Assembly: GCA_018829775.1 (NCBI GenBank)
Contig: JAHJTL010000077.1
Span: 1 to 33,734 of the forward strand
Length of the DNA stretch: 33,734 nucleotides
Reading direction: 5' to 3'
DNA from: Chloroflexota bacterium
GTDB lineage: Bacteria > Chloroflexota > Dehalococcoidia > Dehalococcoidales > RBG-16-60-22
The notes below the pieces were generated by a model. The model saw nothing but the letters and a program-made list of their open reading frames with translations. It did not search any database and had not been told where the DNA came from. A program made the translations under genes and the position numbers. Positions within the stretch are counted from its first letter, which is position 1; each line of letters begins with the position of its first letter. This document shows, piece by piece, positions 26,234 through 30,450 of the stretch.

Positions 26234-26506
26234 TTAGACCTCGTCCTCACCTCCACCTTGGTCATCTCCGCCTTGGTCATCTCCGCCATCATCGGATGCT
26301 TGAGTCTCGGTAAGCCTCACCTTAACTGCTGCGGGGCGACCATCACGTCCCTGACCCTTCTCAAATTCCACTTCCTGCCCTTCGCTAAGGTTATTAAATT
26401 CCACTCCTTCAAGAACGTTGCTATGGAAGAAGAGGTCTGTTCCATCCTCTGTCTTGATAAACCCATAACCGCGGTCCATGAGCGTTTTGATTGTACCTTT
26501 TGGCAT
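26234..26506 (-). CDS. Cold-shock-domain protein with acidic repeat tail
   Basis: A 90-residue protein. Residues 1-65 form a CspA-type OB fold with RNP1 GYGFIK and RNP2 DLFFHSN, which bind single-stranded nucleic acid. Residues 68-90 form an Asp/Gly/Gln tail with a duplicated GGDDQ unit, encoded by a 15-base tandem repeat near 26252-26286. GGAGGTG precedes ATG 26506. The acidic tail could compete with nucleic acid for the OB face, as proposed for other acidic-tail proteins; that is inference. Confidence 0.9.
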   Translation of the reverse strand: MPKGTIKTLMDRGYGFIKTEDGTDLFFHSNVLEGVEFNNLSEGQEVEFEKGQGRDGRPAAVKVRLTETQASDDGGDDQGGDDQGGGEDEV

Positions 26507-26704: not shown

Positions 26705-27154
26705 TCAGCTAGGGAACACTTTAACCGTTGGTTGCTTAGACCAGTTCTTTTTTGAAAACGATTCAACCCTTTCCTTAGCTTTTAAATCTGGGGTGATTAG
26801 CATAAATAGGTCACTCTCATCAAAATAAAGGTATTTTTCACCTTCATCAAAGGCAATTCTATATTCGCGTTCCTTAGTGAAATCATACCCTTCTGGATAC
26901 CTGTTATATTTAATATACTCAACTGTTCCTCCAGTCGGGGTAACCGTAATCTTCGCCATTACAGAATTCTTAAATGTGGGAAACAATTTGGCTGGTTTCC
27001 TATACATTAGGATTTCCTTTTCACAATCTGCTCTTTTATCAGCGGGTAGACTTTTTAGCTTATAATTCCACTCCTGAATCAGTGGGTCACTCCATAATGA
27101 CTCTTCTGTATAGTAATGTACAGGCTGAATGCCTTTTGATTTAAGGAATTTGTC
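26705..27154 (-). pseudogene. AbiGi/DUF2971-like defence gene, 3' part (split by transposon)
   Basis: An open frame from the transposon edge at 27154 down to the stop at 26705. It begins DKFLKSKGIQPVHYYTEESLW and continues to EREYRIAFDEGEKYLYFDESDLFMLITPD. The first ATG in this part is only at 27007. Joined to the 5' part at 30071-30450, with one target-duplication copy removed, it gives an 822-base frame (273 residues). The motif YGKFGIALTDKFLKSKG plus a later EREYRI block resembles AbiGi-type abortive-infection antitoxins and DUF2971 proteins. An internal start could still express a fragment. Confidence 0.75.
27147..27154. repeat. Left 8-bp target-site duplication
   Basis: AATTTGTC directly before the left terminal repeat; identical to 30071-30078. 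Confidence 0.9.
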
Positions 27155-27174
27155 GGTAGTGGGTCAATTTGAAA
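27155..27174 (+). repeat. Left terminal inverted repeat
   Basis: 20 bases, a perfect inverse of 30051-30070. The outward strand contains a TTGACC box that could act as a -35 in a hybrid promoter with flanking DNA. Confidence 0.92.
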
Positions 27175-27189
27175 AGGAGAAGGATTAGA

Positions 27190-27318
27190 ATGGAAAAAAC
27201 ACAAACCATCATTGAGGCTTTAGACCAACTCGCCCTAGCCTTAACGGCACATCACCATCAATGGACAAGGGGGGAACGTAGGCTTTACGAAAAAGCCATC
27301 GCTATCCTTACTTCTTAG
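27190..27318 (+). CDS. 42-residue passenger ORF next to the left end
   Basis: A small frame that starts 15 bases inside the terminal repeat, with an excellent AAGGAGAAGG ribosome site. It encodes MEKTQTIIEALDQLALAL, then a HHHQW motif and an ERRLYEKAIAIL helix. The text resembles small conserved proteins seen near transposases in related bacteria (recalled, not searched). It overlaps the 3' end of the convergent Myb-like gene by 11 bases. Function unknown; a regulator or accessory of transposition is possible. Confidence 0.55.
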   Translation: MEKTQTIIEALDQLALALTAHHHQWTRGERRLYEKAIAILTS

Positions 27319-27517
27319 GACGTCGATTATACGGTGATTGGTTTGTTGGTTTTAGGGATATGTCTAGTTTTGATGCCTCAGAGTAGATAGAATCGGGCGT
27401 CCTGCCTAGTTCTAATCCGATTACTCGTGTCGGGGTATTTCCCCTTACGAGTTCCTTGAGTTTACTGACGTCTGCAGGCGACCAGGGCTTACCAGAATTA
27501 CGGTCTGTCCTTGCCAT
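27308..27517 (-). CDS. Small Myb/SANT-like helix-turn-helix protein
   Basis: A 69-residue protein: KPWSPADVSKLKELVRGNTPTRVIGLELGRTPDSIYSEASK. This has the Trp-spaced helix pattern of Myb/SANT or GcrA-like DNA-binding domains, followed by a basic tail (YNRRPKK). A GGGGGTG ribosome site and a perfect TTGACA-16-TATAAT promoter support expression. As the only clear DNA-binding passenger, it could regulate the element's promoters. Confidence 0.65.
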   Translation of the reverse strand: MARTDRNSGKPWSPADVSKLKELVRGNTPTRVIGLELGRTPDSIYSEASKLDISLKPTNQSPYNRRPKK

Positions 27518-27547
27518 AATTCACCCCCTTTGTATTAGGTGTATATG

Positions 27548-27575
27548 ATTATACTCCTTGCAAAGTGGGTGTCAA
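27548..27575 (-). promoter_or_regulatory. Promoter of the Myb-like gene
   Basis: TTGACA (27575-27570), 16-base spacer, TATAAT (27553-27548), all perfect. It overlaps a divergent promoter on the plus strand. Confidence 0.7.
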
Positions 27576-27585
27576 GGGTTATAAT
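27558..27585 (+). promoter_or_regulatory. Promoter of the 60-residue membrane protein
   Basis: TTGCAA (27558-27563, four of six) and a perfect TATAAT (27580-27585) with a 16-base spacer. Predicted leader under 10 bases before ATG 27601. Confidence 0.45.
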
Positions 27586-27600
27586 AAGTAGTGACAAAAA

Positions 27601-27783
27601 ATGAAGGCGAAAGTTAAAGACTTATTATTAACCTTATTCGTGCTTCTTTTATTATGTGTGGGAATTCTCATGGTTGCCGGATTTACTTCTTTGTTCGGGG
27701 AATACTGGCAGTGGGCGCTAGGTGGGCTTGTAATCCTGGCTTTTGTGTGTATAGTTCTATTTCTGATGTATAAAGACAAATGA
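27601..27783 (+). CDS. Small two-helix membrane protein (passenger)
   Basis: A 60-residue protein with two hydrophobic segments (residues 8-27 and 36-56), a short charged N-terminus (MKAKVKD) and a charged C-terminus (MYKDK). The connecting loop is rich in aromatics (FGEYWQW). No ribosome site, but a consensus -10 lies just upstream. No family recognised. The frame ends at the edge of a GC-rich inverted repeat. Confidence 0.5.
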   Translation: MKAKVKDLLLTLFVLLLLCVGILMVAGFTSLFGEYWQWALGGLVILAFVCIVLFLMYKDK

Positions 27784-27910
27784 GCGGAGCGGGGGCGGGG
27801 GCGGGGGGAAGAAAACAGGAAAGAGCACCTCTTCTTCATTCAGGCGAGGTTTTCTCCCTTCTTGAATCCAAGCGCGCCACCTACTTTACTATCCCCCCGC
27901 CCCCGCCCGA
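27784..27910 (-). ncRNA. Candidate structured RNA or GC-rich hairpin region in the transposon
   Basis: A 17-bp perfect inverted repeat of G-runs and C-runs (27793-27809 with 27892-27908) encloses about 82 bases. A perfect minus-strand promoter (27938-27911) would start transcription near 27904, at the first base-paired positions. Inside are smaller pairs: AAGAG/CTCTT with a 3-base loop, GAAGAAAAC/GTTTTC, and ATTCA/TGAAT. No convincing coding frame runs through it. Alternatively it could be only a bidirectional terminator for the two genes that face it. The G-runs could also form a quadruplex. Confidence 0.4.
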
Positions 27911-27938
27911 ATTATACTCCTGAAATAGGTGGTGTCAA
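27911..27938 (-). promoter_or_regulatory. Perfect-consensus promoter facing the GC-rich inverted repeat
   Basis: TTGACA (27938-27933), 16-base spacer, TATAAT (27916-27911). It overlaps the last codons of the transposase gene and points away from it, with no protein gene downstream for over 390 bases. Confidence 0.65.
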
Positions 27939-28771
27939 GAGGCAAGTTTTACAATATCCTCTATTGTCCAGATGCGCTCACTAATCCCTGCTGCCATAGC
28001 TGGGGTTGTTGGATAGGGGCTAGCTAGTGTTTTATGTGGGCGAGCAAAGTTGTAATACATGAAATGGAGAGCCACAGCATGTTCCAGATTCTCTATCTTC
28101 TTTGAGAATGCGTTAGTCAATCTAGTAAATCGCCTCATGCTCATTCGCATTGTAAGATTATGGCGCTCGGCAAAGCTGGTTGATATTTTAGCGGGGTCAG
28201 GGTGCCCCGTAACTGTACGGTGGTTTACCCCTATACATTGGGCAGGGCTGTATCTAGTTTCGCTTTCAGGCTCAACGCCGTATAGTTTTACTAGCATGGC
28301 ATAATCAACCTCAGAGCCGAAGGCATCCTCAACAGCGTTAAGATACACTCTATGGCCATCGGTTGTAATTTGAACACGATTAGCTAACCTACTTTTCAGG
28401 TCAAGCATAAACTCATAGGCATAGCCCGCATCCCGTAGGCCGACTAGCCAAGAGGAAACAAGTTTAGTGTCAGCATCAATCGCCGTCCATGTCCAGACAT
28501 CGCCATAGCCAAATCTACCCTGTTTATCTTCGGGCACGTTCTTTTGCTTGGCATAGCAGAATGACCAGATTTCGTCGCATTGAATATTAGCGCAGGTTAA
28601 ATCTCTTAAGTGTTTATCTTGATACTCGGCACAAGCAGCGCCGACACTAGCTAACAATCGAGTTACCGTGCCTTTAGCGGTATCAGTCATACGGCAAGTA
28701 GCACGAATAGAATTGCCTTCAACTAAAGCTGAAATGACTTTTACCCTGCGGTCTTTGCTCAACTTGTTCAT
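27935..28771 (-). CDS. IS1-family-type DDE transposase
   Basis: A 278-residue transposase. An N-terminal helix-turn-helix / Zn-less region (RVKVISALVEGNSIRATCR) is followed by the catalytic core. DDE residues are Asp66 in QCDEIWSF, Asp138 in TTDGH, and Glu202 in FAERHNLTMRMSMRR. The C-terminal HFMYYNFARPHKTL is typical of the group. Unlike E. coli IS1, it is encoded in one frame without programmed frameshifting. A perfect promoter has its -10 only 9 bases before ATG, so the mRNA is probably leaderless. All motifs are intact. Confidence 0.93.
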   Translation of the reverse strand: MNKLSKDRRVKVISALVEGNSIRATCRMTDTAKGTVTRLLASVGAACAEYQDKHLRDLTCANIQCDEIWSFCYAKQKNVPEDKQGRFGYGDVWTWTAIDADTKLVSSWLVGLRDAGYAYEFMLDLKSRLANRVQITTDGHRVYLNAVEDAFGSEVDYAMLVKLYGVEPESETRYSPAQCIGVNHRTVTGHPDPAKISTSFAERHNLTMRMSMRRFTRLTNAFSKKIENLEHAVALHFMYYNFARPHKTLASPYPTTPAMAAGISERIWTIEDIVKLAS

Positions 28772-28780
28772 TACACTAGT

Positions 28781-28809
28781 ATTATACTTGACCGCTTAAG
28801 CATTGTCAA
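28781..28809 (-). promoter_or_regulatory. Transposase promoter with internal operator-like site
   Basis: TTGACA (28809-28804), 17-base spacer, TATAAT (28786-28781), all perfect. The spacer holds the 11-mer CTTGACCGCTT (28787-28797, plus strand), also present in inverted orientation in the promoter at 30010-30040. Confidence 0.7.
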
Positions 28810-28856
28810 GTACCTTCGGGGTTATTTTAAAATATTTTTTACCAAAAGGTGATATA

Positions 28857-29816
28857 ATGGCTCATAAAATTGGAGATTATAAAAATGGAATATTTCACGC
28901 AGGGGTACTCCCGAATATGTTAGTTGATAATCAATTTCTTAAATGTGTATCCTTTTTGCTTATTGATAGGCAAAATCCTGATACATTAAAGCAGGAAAGA
29001 ATCCCCATTGCTACAGCATTCTTTGTTTCAATGCCTATAATTAACGACTATGCGCAGATATATGCTGTGACTGCAAGGCACGTCATATATGAGACAGCAA
29101 GGGGCAACTTATATCTTCGTCTCAAATCATCAAATGATGATTATGAAGATGTAGTTGTTCTACCTGATAATTGGATTTGCCACCCCAAAACGGATGTTGC
29201 AGTAATCCCGATTGAAATTCCAGATAAGCATGATTGCAAGATTATCCCCCTTGAGGCTTTGGCTACCGAGAAATTTATTACTGATAATGAAGTCAGTACT
29301 GGTGATGATGTTTTCTTTGTTGGCTTATTTACAGCATATTCAGGGCAAAAACACGACCGACCGATTGTAAGATTTGGGAATATTTCTCTGATGAAAGAAG
29401 AAATACCACTAAAGTTAGTCCCTGGTAGCGAGACTAAAACTTTAGTGGATGCCTATCTTGTTGAATCTCGCTCCTGGGGAGGGCAAAGCGGGTCTCCGGC
29501 ATTTGTATACTTTCCCGTTGATAGAGAACCCGGCATTATTAAATTTGGTGGGCAGCAATTTGCTTTACTGGGTCTTACTCACGGGCATTATAATATTACT
29601 CAAGATGTAAAATTCGCTGGAGATATATTAGGAAGTGGTAAAGTCCCAATCAATGCTGGTATAGCATTGGTGATACCAGCAGATAAGATAATTGAGACGC
29701 TTATGGAGAAACAGCTATTGGAGGAGCGGGAGAGGGATTTAATAAAATATCAGAATAGTTTGTCGAGCCCAACGCCTGATATTACTTATCCCATCGTTTT
29801 TGTGCGGCTTTCTTAG
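28857..29816 (+). CDS. Trypsin-like serine protease domain protein (passenger)
   Basis: A 319-residue protein with a complete chymotrypsin-fold triad pattern: His75 in VTARHV, Asp113 in HPKTDVAVI, and Ser211 in GGQSGSPAF. No signal peptide is seen, so it is probably cytoplasmic. The C-terminus (about 280-319) is a charged helix and tail. AAAAGGTGAT precedes ATG 28857. It is AT-rich like the rest of the element. Trypsin-like proteins of this type occur as effectors or partners in some bacterial defence systems; its role here as transposon cargo is unknown. Confidence 0.75.
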   Translation: MAHKIGDYKNGIFHAGVLPNMLVDNQFLKCVSFLLIDRQNPDTLKQERIPIATAFFVSMPIINDYAQIYAVTARHVIYETARGNLYLRLKSSNDDYEDVVVLPDNWICHPKTDVAVIPIEIPDKHDCKIIPLEALATEKFITDNEVSTGDDVFFVGLFTAYSGQKHDRPIVRFGNISLMKEEIPLKLVPGSETKTLVDAYLVESRSWGGQSGSPAFVYFPVDREPGIIKFGGQQFALLGLTHGHYNITQDVKFAGDILGSGKVPINAGIALVIPADKIIETLMEKQLLEERERDLIKYQNSLSSPTPDITYPIVFVRLS

Positions 29817-30003
29817 CGATTTCTTTGCGTTGCTCAGGTGTTAGTTTATTAGCCCTAGCCTTACCGCCTTTTAATCCACCTTTACGCCCTAGAGCAACGG
29901 CGTGGGGGTCTTTGGCAGGTTCTTCAGCAAAATCGGCAGTGGTCTCTGACGCAATATTAGAAGCTATTACATTTATATCTGGAGTTCTTTTTCGCTTTTG
30001 CAT
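29782..30003 (-). CDS. KGG-motif small basic protein (passenger)
   Basis: A 73-residue protein with HAVALGRKGGLKGGKARANKLTPEQRKEIAKKAAQKRW in its second half. This Gly-Lys-rich pattern is common in small bacterial proteins sometimes labelled histone H1-like or KGG proteins, and a nucleic-acid-binding role is likely but unproven. It converges on the protease gene with a 35-base overlap. The -10 box TATACT lies 6 bases before ATG 30003, so the mRNA is probably leaderless. Confidence 0.7.
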   Translation of the reverse strand: MQKRKRTPDINVIASNIASETTADFAEEPAKDPHAVALGRKGGLKGGKARANKLTPEQRKEIAKKAAQKRWDK

Positions 30004-30009
30004 ATTTTA

Positions 30010-30040
30010 AGTATAGCATAAGCGGTCAAGCATTTGTCAA
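30010..30040 (-). promoter_or_regulatory. Promoter of the KGG-motif gene
   Basis: TTGACA (30040-30035) and TATACT (30015-30010), spacer 19. The spacer contains the same 11-mer as the transposase promoter, in the opposite orientation (plus-strand AAGCGGTCAAG at 30020-30030). Confidence 0.5.
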
Positions 30041-30050
30041 GACCCAATAA

Positions 30051-30070
30051 TTTCAAATTGACCCACTACC
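30051..30070 (-). repeat. Right terminal inverted repeat
   Basis: 20 bases, a perfect inverse of 27155-27174. Confidence 0.92.
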
Positions 30071-30078
30071 AATTTGTC
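30071..30078. repeat. Right 8-bp target-site duplication
   Basis: AATTTGTC directly after the right terminal repeat, identical to 27147-27154. Confidence 0.9.
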
Positions 30079-30450
30079 AGTAAGTGCTATTCCAAACTTA
30101 CCGTATTCTCTGGAGTGGTTAGAGGCTCTCAGTTGATTAAAGGAAATTCTTATAAATGAAAGCATTAGTACATCTCTCTGCAGAAAATATATTGAATTGT
30201 TATCAGGTAATCCTTTGTTTTCCCGTTGGTCTAAGTCGTGAGTTAACGTTGCTTTAGAACCATCGGCACCAAACTTCATCCTATCTAACGGAATACGTAT
30301 ACTACCAGGTTTAGGGTATTCTGGGATAAATTCTGTGCATGGAGATGCCATAAGTCTCTTGTTTTTTAAAATAAGCTCAATAACTTGTTCGGTCTGCTCT
30401 TCAGTTTTCCCTTGCTTACCTAGCGACCCAAAAGTGAAGTGAATAAACAT
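30071..30450 (-). pseudogene. AbiGi/DUF2971-like defence gene, 5' part (split by transposon)
   Basis: Starts at ATG 30450 behind an AGGAAA site and reads MFIHFTFGSLGKQGKTEEQ through REYGKFGIALTDK up to the insertion point. The frame then runs into the transposon and stops at 30037, so the native protein is truncated to about half. The missing 3' part is at 26705-27154. The EYGKFGIALT block is the recognisable part of the AbiGi/DUF2971-type family. Such proteins act in phage abortive infection, so the insertion may have inactivated a defence gene. The upstream gap to 30626 holds only a short GC hairpin near 30555-30572. Confidence 0.75.

Follow-up and report, generated by a model that had tools for sequence, protein, structure and literature searches.

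The stretch of DNA analysed here, called the window below, comprises 33,734 nucleotides of a Chloroflexota bacterium of the Dehalococcoidales (contig JAHJTL010000077.1, positions 1 to 33,734 of the forward strand), and our subject is a 2,916-bp transposon at positions 27155-30070 together with the family to which it belongs. A preliminary description of the sequence had named it a passenger-carrying IS1-type transposon with exact ends, and we found the ends, the target duplication and the intact DDE transposase as described there. The terminal inverted repeats, GGTAGTGGGTCAATTTGAAA, are 20 bp long and 20/20 complementary; they lie at 27155-27174 on the plus strand, which is the right end in transposase orientation, and at 30051-30070 on the minus strand, the left end, and they follow the family end consensus given below. 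Next to them the 8-bp target duplication AATTTGTC is present as exact copies at 27147-27154 and 30071-30078. The element splits one host open reading frame (ORF) of the minus strand, the 5' part of which (30071-30450, 380 nt) is in frame with the 3' part (26705-27146); the frame runs on from 30071 to 27146 and reaches its stop at 26705. Among 200 related genomes the 5' part matches its own genome only, so that a comparison with an empty site was not possible and the insertion was judged by the duplication and the reading frame.

The transposase gene (27935-28771, minus strand; 278 codons with zero internal stops) was recognised from its ORF, its profile matches and a structural model as encoding a single-ORF IS1-like DDE transposase with the catalytic residues D66, D138 and E202. 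Across 68 transposases of the family, D66 and D138 are present in 68/68 and E202 in 67/68. The AlphaFold2 model of the protein has a predicted local distance difference test (pLDDT) score of 82 and is weak at residues 199-221 around E202; its best structural matches include the ISCth4 transposase and retroviral integrases. The best NCBIfam model for the window transposase is IS1, with 48 bits and thus under the curated cut-off of 100, and this model matches 36 of 36 family members at E<=1e-3; Pfam DDE_Tnp_IS1 gives 24.2 bits at a cut-off of 24.1. We considered the IS1595 family and rejected it: its model reaches the window transposase at E 0.0036 and with 17 bits, the cut-off being 75, and of the 36 members it matches 11 at E<=1e-3, IS1 always leading in the number of matches and in best E-value. 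The InsA/InsB' frameshift organisation of classical IS1 was not found, the transposase being one continuous ORF, and single-ORF members of the IS1 family also exist. The ISMhu11 subgroup of IS1 in ISfinder, which has members several kb long, may include the family of the window element; ISMhu11 was named in no paper of the literature searched.

Transposase matches were present in 44 of the 200 related genomes, many of them mere fragments, and a search of 84,980 species with one genome each gave 544 confirmed transposase stretches. Of these 544 stretches the best 80 were kept, and a first set was compiled from 107 loci with a transposase match. The ends were located with a script that allowed up to 2 mismatches in the 14-bp repeats and 1 in the duplication, and an element of plain insertion sequence (IS) size would have passed it. 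This procedure gave 68 distinct elements, the window element included. Of the 107 loci, 37 yielded no ends, owing to short flanks, contig ends or decay, so that the sample lacks elements whose ends have been lost or changed. A second set of 41 loci was taken from distant Chloroflexota, from related genomes with longer flanks and from three plasmids; ends were located at 21 loci and not at 15, and 5 were without a transposase. L154 and L175, two of the 21, agree in length and duplication with L104 and L069 and were left out as repeats of these, so that 19 new elements remained. By their record titles, the relatives that were kept come from Dehalococcoidia, other Chloroflexi, Actinomycetota, Acidobacteria, Nitrospirae and several groups of Proteobacteria, with further relatives from Omnitrophota, Zixiibacteriota, Phycisphaerales, Armatimonadetes and one metagenome-assembled genome labelled as Asgard (a 4.2-kb contig).

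As expected of a mobile element rather than of a fixed locus without the duplication, all 68 first-set elements, at differing sites, have a duplication matching in 8/8 bases, even though the script had tolerated one mismatch, and the base next to the duplication matches in 16 of the 68, which is the chance level. The duplications of the second set match at 8/8 in 20 of 21 cases and at 7/8 in one. Both ends of the family read GGTAGTGggTCAgTTTGAa, of the type GGTAGTGxxTCArTTTGAA, and the first-set elements have GGT in 68/68 and G at position 7 in 68/68 at both ends. The ends of the window element are not a product of chance, because other elements that were found through the transposase alone have ends that agree with them. 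Sizes range from 1,968 to 5,278 bp in the first set (n=68) and from 2,213 to 7,068 bp among the 19 new elements of the second. The 87 elements with ends, from many phyla, thus span 1,968-7,068 bp and none is IS-sized. The preliminary description had regarded the cargo as unusual for an IS1-type element; all 87 elements carry cargo, at 1.97-7.07 kb, and within this family the cargo is therefore not unusual. The largest and most distant second-set element with ends (L168, 7,068 bp) has a transposase 43% identical and no recognisable copy of the KGG gene described next.

A second core gene

The KGG gene (29782-30003, minus strand) encodes a protein of 73 amino acids and was identified by ORF clustering, by a hidden Markov model (HMM) and by a search with KGG alone. 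It had been listed among the passengers together with a 42-residue ORF, a Myb-like protein, a small membrane protein, a trypsin-like protease and a GC-rich inverted repeat; all of these are present, and the KGG protein is a core gene product rather than a passenger. Clustering of the ORFs of the 68 elements by BLAST found the transposase in 68/68 and KGG in 64/68, both on the transposase strand. With the HMM, KGG was found in 68/68, four of them matching only weakly, through the N-terminal part, without a KGG domain. The start of the gene is most often some 65 bp in from the left end and sometimes deeper, behind cargo, and the consensus of the C-terminal end of the protein is KNPAAVALGRLGGLKGGKARAxKLTPExRxEIAxKAAxARW. 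We found no convincing Pfam family for it, and designed alpha-repeat proteins, considered as possible relatives, gave a best E of 0.0011 that we judged spurious. KGG divergence tracks transposase divergence (r 0.32, n 64, p 0.001). The window KGG had no tblastn match in the plasmid collection, in which more distant KGG genes do lie on plasmids.

When KGG was the sole query against the 200 related genomes, 23 loci were fetched at E<=4.3e-18, with two further matches within this threshold outside the 23. A family end was present in the fetched stretch of 20 of the 23 loci, the window's included, and 8 of these 20 were without a transposase there. These results bear on the simplest account of the element, namely that it is an ordinary transporter IS in which KGG and the cargo are chance passengers. 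IS with passengers are known (PMC3129680, PMC9330008), and the window element is a single copy in its own 2.16-Mb genome of 118 contigs. The presence of KGG, at least in part, in 68/68 first-set elements on the transposase strand and the recovery of family ends by the KGG-only search speak against chance, and we consider this the least probable of the accounts discussed here. KGG is the second core gene of the family, not cargo.

Core promoters, the shared palindrome and its possible binder

Both core genes of the window element have a sigma-70-type promoter directly before the start codon. The transposase promoter, TTGACA-17-TATAAT followed by ATG (28769-28809, minus strand), has its -10 box 9 nt before the ATG, and its spacer holds a predicted palindromic operator at 28785-28802 (minus strand; 16/18 matches to the family consensus). 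The KGG promoter, TTGACA-19-TATACT followed by ATG (30001-30040, minus strand), has its -10 box 6 nt before the ATG and a predicted palindromic operator in the spacer at 30015-30032 (minus strand; 15/18). The palindrome emerged solely when the promoters were aligned: the upstream regions of the transposase genes read TTGACA-A-TGCTTGAGCGCTCAAG-(CA/TA)TAAT, which is a promoter close to consensus whose spacer contains an 18-bp palindrome, and the palindrome consensus common to both core genes is TGCTTGASCGSTCAAGCA. A general test for motifs shared by the KGG and transposase upstream regions had given 12/47 compared with 43/233 shuffled pairs. At a threshold of at least 13/18, the palindrome is present upstream of the transposase in 51/68 elements compared with 2/340 dinucleotide shuffles; the corresponding figures for the surroundings of the KGG start are 45/64 and 3/320. 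Allowing at most 3 mismatches, the 33.7-kb window contains exactly two copies, at the two core promoters, where 0.04 would be expected.

At the KGG gene the position of the palindrome varies. After correction by hand it lies upstream in the promoter in 21 of 64 elements, across the start codon in 37 and at neither place in 6. The automatic count had been 42 at the start codon, 16 upstream only and 6 without; five elements (L005, L053, L080, L081 and L091) had been scored as start-codon cases merely because the palindrome contains ATG. The start-codon arrangement is typically ATGCCTAAGCGxTCAAGC, encoding MPKRSS or close variants. Within the first seven codons of KGG genes with a start-codon operator, TCA or AGC makes up 50 of 58 serine codons, one of which stems from the five misassigned elements, compared with 89 of 235 at other places in KGG genes (p 1.4e-11). 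Protein conservation alone does not account for this codon skew.

The promoters are also placed very close to the genes. A transposase promoter scoring at least 10/12 with its -10 box ending 5-10 nt before the ATG was found in 37/68 elements and in 0/252 flanking ORFs, and anywhere within 140 nt in 54/68 compared with 17/252. For KGG, promoters scoring at least 9 in the close -10 position were found in 28/64, 23 of them at 6 nt. The spacing control consists of flanking ORFs taken from their first ATG, the true starts of which are uncertain, and several in-frame starts were tried in the KGG scan. Because the -10 boxes sit so close to the ATG, the spacing suggests that the core mRNAs are leaderless. 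Longer leaders occur in other elements, about one third of the transposase genes having the -10 box 19-51 nt upstream rather than 4-10 nt, which makes two leader types in the family. Several elements, L049, L052 and L110 among them, have Shine-Dalgarno-like leaders.

The distribution of the operator allows its possible binders to be compared. Four first-set elements (L041, L049, L052 and L110) keep the N-terminal part of KGG and have lost the KGG domain, and none of the four (0/4) has the operator near a core gene. Over both sets, the operator is near a core gene in 67/78 elements with the KGG domain compared with 0/9 without it (Fisher p 3e-7); in the first set the figures are 61/64 and 0/4 (p 4e-5). 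KGG is favoured as the binder because the operator accompanies the KGG domain, and from this pattern we infer that KGG may repress both core genes. On balance we lean to the view that the window element is a copy of a widespread IS1-like family of unit transposons with a two-gene core, exchangeable cargo and a shared operator through which KGG would act as repressor. In this picture the ends with their duplications, the core genes and their spread, the operator with its codon skew and the exchange of cargo are shown directly, and leaderless expression, KGG as the repressor at the operator and a defence role of the cargo are inferences. The single-ORF DDE transposase would recognise ends of the type GGTAGTGxxTCArTTTGAA and insert the element with 8-bp duplications, and the near-consensus sigma-70-type promoters would drive both core genes, often without room for a leader. 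The KGG protein would bind the shared palindrome through its C-terminal KGG domain and, once bound, repress its own gene and the transposase gene. A newly arrived copy would thus express strongly and then shut down.

Several observations count against this proposal. The operator is absent from the transposase gene in 17/68 first-set elements. In the more distant second set, the canonical operator is present in merely 6/14 elements with the KGG domain compared with 0/5 without it, which is not significant (p 0.13). The consensus was derived from the first set, and the tests ignore relatedness among the elements. Of the five second-set elements that lack the KGG domain, L171 alone has an N-terminal part that can still be recognised; in the remaining four, sheer distance may be the reason. 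The KGG model has four helices with a predicted template modelling (pTM) score of 0.36, and no structural match was found for it. The window element is a single copy and its own genome, when searched, gave no sign of activity. Finally, an end-like GGTCAGT directly follows many transposase -10 boxes, which fits autoregulation by the transposase.

Because of this end-like sequence at many transposase starts, the transposase stays a rival binder. It would bind the palindrome through its N-terminal helix-turn-helix and regulate its own gene, and KGG would be an architectural partner, needed to pair the ends, to choose the target or to stabilise the transposase. In L054, L059 and L065 the operator overlaps the inner right end, and KGG proteins that have lost the KGG domain still have their N-terminal part; both observations are in keeping with such roles. 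At odds with them is L041, whose transposase is 70-71% identical to that of the window and which nevertheless has no operator and a KGG without the KGG domain; L171, with a transposase 68% identical, is likewise without both. We regard this explanation as unlikely, although it is the one that we take most seriously beside repression by KGG. In L041 the transposase promoter contains a different perfect palindrome, with 14-bp arms and a 3-bp loop, in an element whose KGG is without the KGG domain.

KGG might also be a general DNA-coating protein similar to histone H1, useful to the element or to its cargo after arrival in a new host and having no regulatory role. It is annotated as 'histone H1' on the Mesorhizobium plasmid CP050295.1, and it is basic, with a median net charge of +11 over 64 proteins. 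A general coating role fits poorly with a gene that stays constant while the cargo changes and that shares its operator with the transposase gene, and we give it little credence. In the literature searched, 'IS1 family transposase' and 'histone H1' did not occur together in any paper, and 'KGG domain' was absent from the papers that a wider literature query listed.

Cargo of the family and of the window element

Cargo lies between KGG and the transposase, between the transposase and the right end, or in both places. The preliminary description had proposed a search for copies with the same ends and different cargo, and such copies exist among close relatives. The transposases of L054 and L059 are 93% identical and those of L096 and L107, from two Mycobacterium interjectum records, 87% identical, and neither pair shares cargo at E 1e-8; related cargo is also found with transposases merely 58-68% identical. 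The cargo is exchangeable and differs between close relatives. We compared 108 cargo ORFs, picked by hand from 166 (the 117 of at least 120 amino acids less some that are likely antisense, plus a few others), with 108 flanking ORFs, a random sample out of 297 whose members are longer on average than the cargo ORFs. The leading Pfam families of the cargo are HTH_3 helix-turn-helix (10), IrrE-like peptidase (7), P63C (6), ClpP-like (6) and NYN (3), followed by GmrSD, DNA methylase and AbiEii-like ATPase with 2 each. The top 25 families of the flanking ORFs are mostly enzymes and housekeeping proteins and share none with the top 25 of the cargo. PADLOC models matched 350 times in the cargo compared with 64 in the flanking ORFs, these totals counting models and not genes, and the leading names in the cargo include RmrA, capP, PD-Lambda-2 and HEC-06. 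By these profile matches the cargo leans towards defence and toxin-antitoxin families, and it may have a role in defence. Seven elements (L062, L067, L080, L081, L093, L096 and L100) have cargo proteins with an N-terminal KGG-type motif and, where scanned, a match to the P63C domain; this cargo family reuses the domain of the core protein.

The largest cargo gene of the window element encodes a trypsin-like serine protease of 319 amino acids (28857-29816, plus strand), recognised by matches to the Trypsin_2 and PDC-S45 profiles. The start at 28857 is our choice, the longest ORF beginning at 28803. Pfam Trypsin_2 matches at E 8.8e-6 and 27.0 bits, at a cut-off of 27.6, and PADLOC PDC-S45 at E 4.2e-14, residues 46-254 aligning with positions 33-247 of 293 in the model. 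By eye, the H, D and S motifs are in place (TARH, KTDVAV and GGQSGS). A protease 34% identical to it, in L033, also matches PDC-S45. PDC-S45 is a candidate family for phage defence, and the window protease, which matches it, may accordingly be a putative defence protein.

The right-hand cargo had no relative among the family loci compared. It consists of the ORF of 42 amino acids (27190-27318, plus strand), taken from the ORF list and without a relative found; the 'Myb-like' ORF of 69 amino acids (27308-27517, minus strand), without a Pfam or NCBIfam match; and a hydrophobic small membrane protein of 60 amino acids (27601-27783, plus strand), recognised from its translation. The 'Myb-like' ORF has a promoter-like TTGACA/TATAAT sequence at 27548-27575 on the minus strand, which overlaps an opposed promoter-like sequence at 27558-27585 on the plus strand between this ORF and that of the small membrane protein. 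Folding predicts a stable GC-rich hairpin at 27785-27910 (minus strand; -72.7 kcal/mol, z -5.4), the inverted repeat having its arms at 27793-27809 and 27892-27908, and a promoter-like TTGACA-16-TATAAT at 27911-27938 on the minus strand reads into it. The hairpin region as a whole (27785-27938) overlaps the region downstream of the hydrophobic 60-residue ORF, and the hairpin could be a small RNA or part of a type I toxin-antitoxin arrangement. It is not a trait of the family, since among perfect stems of at least 13 only L050 has a comparable long-looped one, and Rfam gave no match at gathering thresholds for 27000-30200. Outside the element, the ORF at 26234-26506 (minus strand), which adjoins the interrupted host ORF, encodes a cold-shock-like protein whose tail is acidic and rich in glycine, judged by eye from its translation. 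For that ORF we rejected an identity with AbiGi, the match being too weak (E 0.22).

Significance and comparison with known systems

Taken more broadly, the family may consist of compact transposons that shuttle small defence and toxin-antitoxin modules across phyla. They would control themselves through a new DNA-binding KGG domain reading an 18-bp palindrome, which would serve as operator and as code where it lies across the first codons, and their leaderless near-consensus core promoters would make them largely independent of host translation signals. We advance this wider picture tentatively and with less than even confidence. If true, it would help to explain the spread of small defence and toxin-antitoxin modules to unrelated phyla, and it would give a function to KGG proteins labelled 'histone H1'. 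The sharp ends, the two-gene core and the predicted operator would also offer a simple route to new defence candidates.

With the IS1 family the elements share the DDE transposase, the 8-bp duplication and ends beginning GGT..TG; target duplications in that family are 8-9 bp and its terminal repeats begin GGT..TG. They differ in the single ORF, in the size of 1.97-7.07 kb, in the second core gene, KGG, and in the shared palindromic operator. Classical IS1 is regulated by a product of its own transposase frame, whereas here an IS1-type transposon would be regulated by a separate gene. The nearest cargo-free relative that we saw is a candidate IS1-like element of 1,186 bp on the Meiothermus taiwanensis plasmid NZ_CP021131.1. 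Its transposase is 27% identical, its best candidate ends begin GGTAGT (3/14 mismatches) and its 8-bp duplication is exact; it differs in being IS-sized, with the transposase as the sole annotated gene inside.

Transporter IS (tIS) are IS derivatives with passenger genes (PMC3129680, PMC7986276 and PMC9330008). As in our family, a single IS-type transposase and passenger genes unrelated to it lie between the ends, and in the window element, too, IS ends enclose a transposase and passenger genes; the family differs in carrying cargo in all 87 elements and in having one constant second gene. Tn3-family transposons with toxin-antitoxin passengers, in which the resolvase regulates the transposition genes (PMC7157771), are the nearest functional analogue. 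They share cargo of the toxin-antitoxin type and a transposon-encoded regulator of the transposition genes, the latter being proposed here for KGG. They differ from our family in their unrelated transposase, and in the family no resolvase or res site was identified and the cargo stands outside the proposed circuit.

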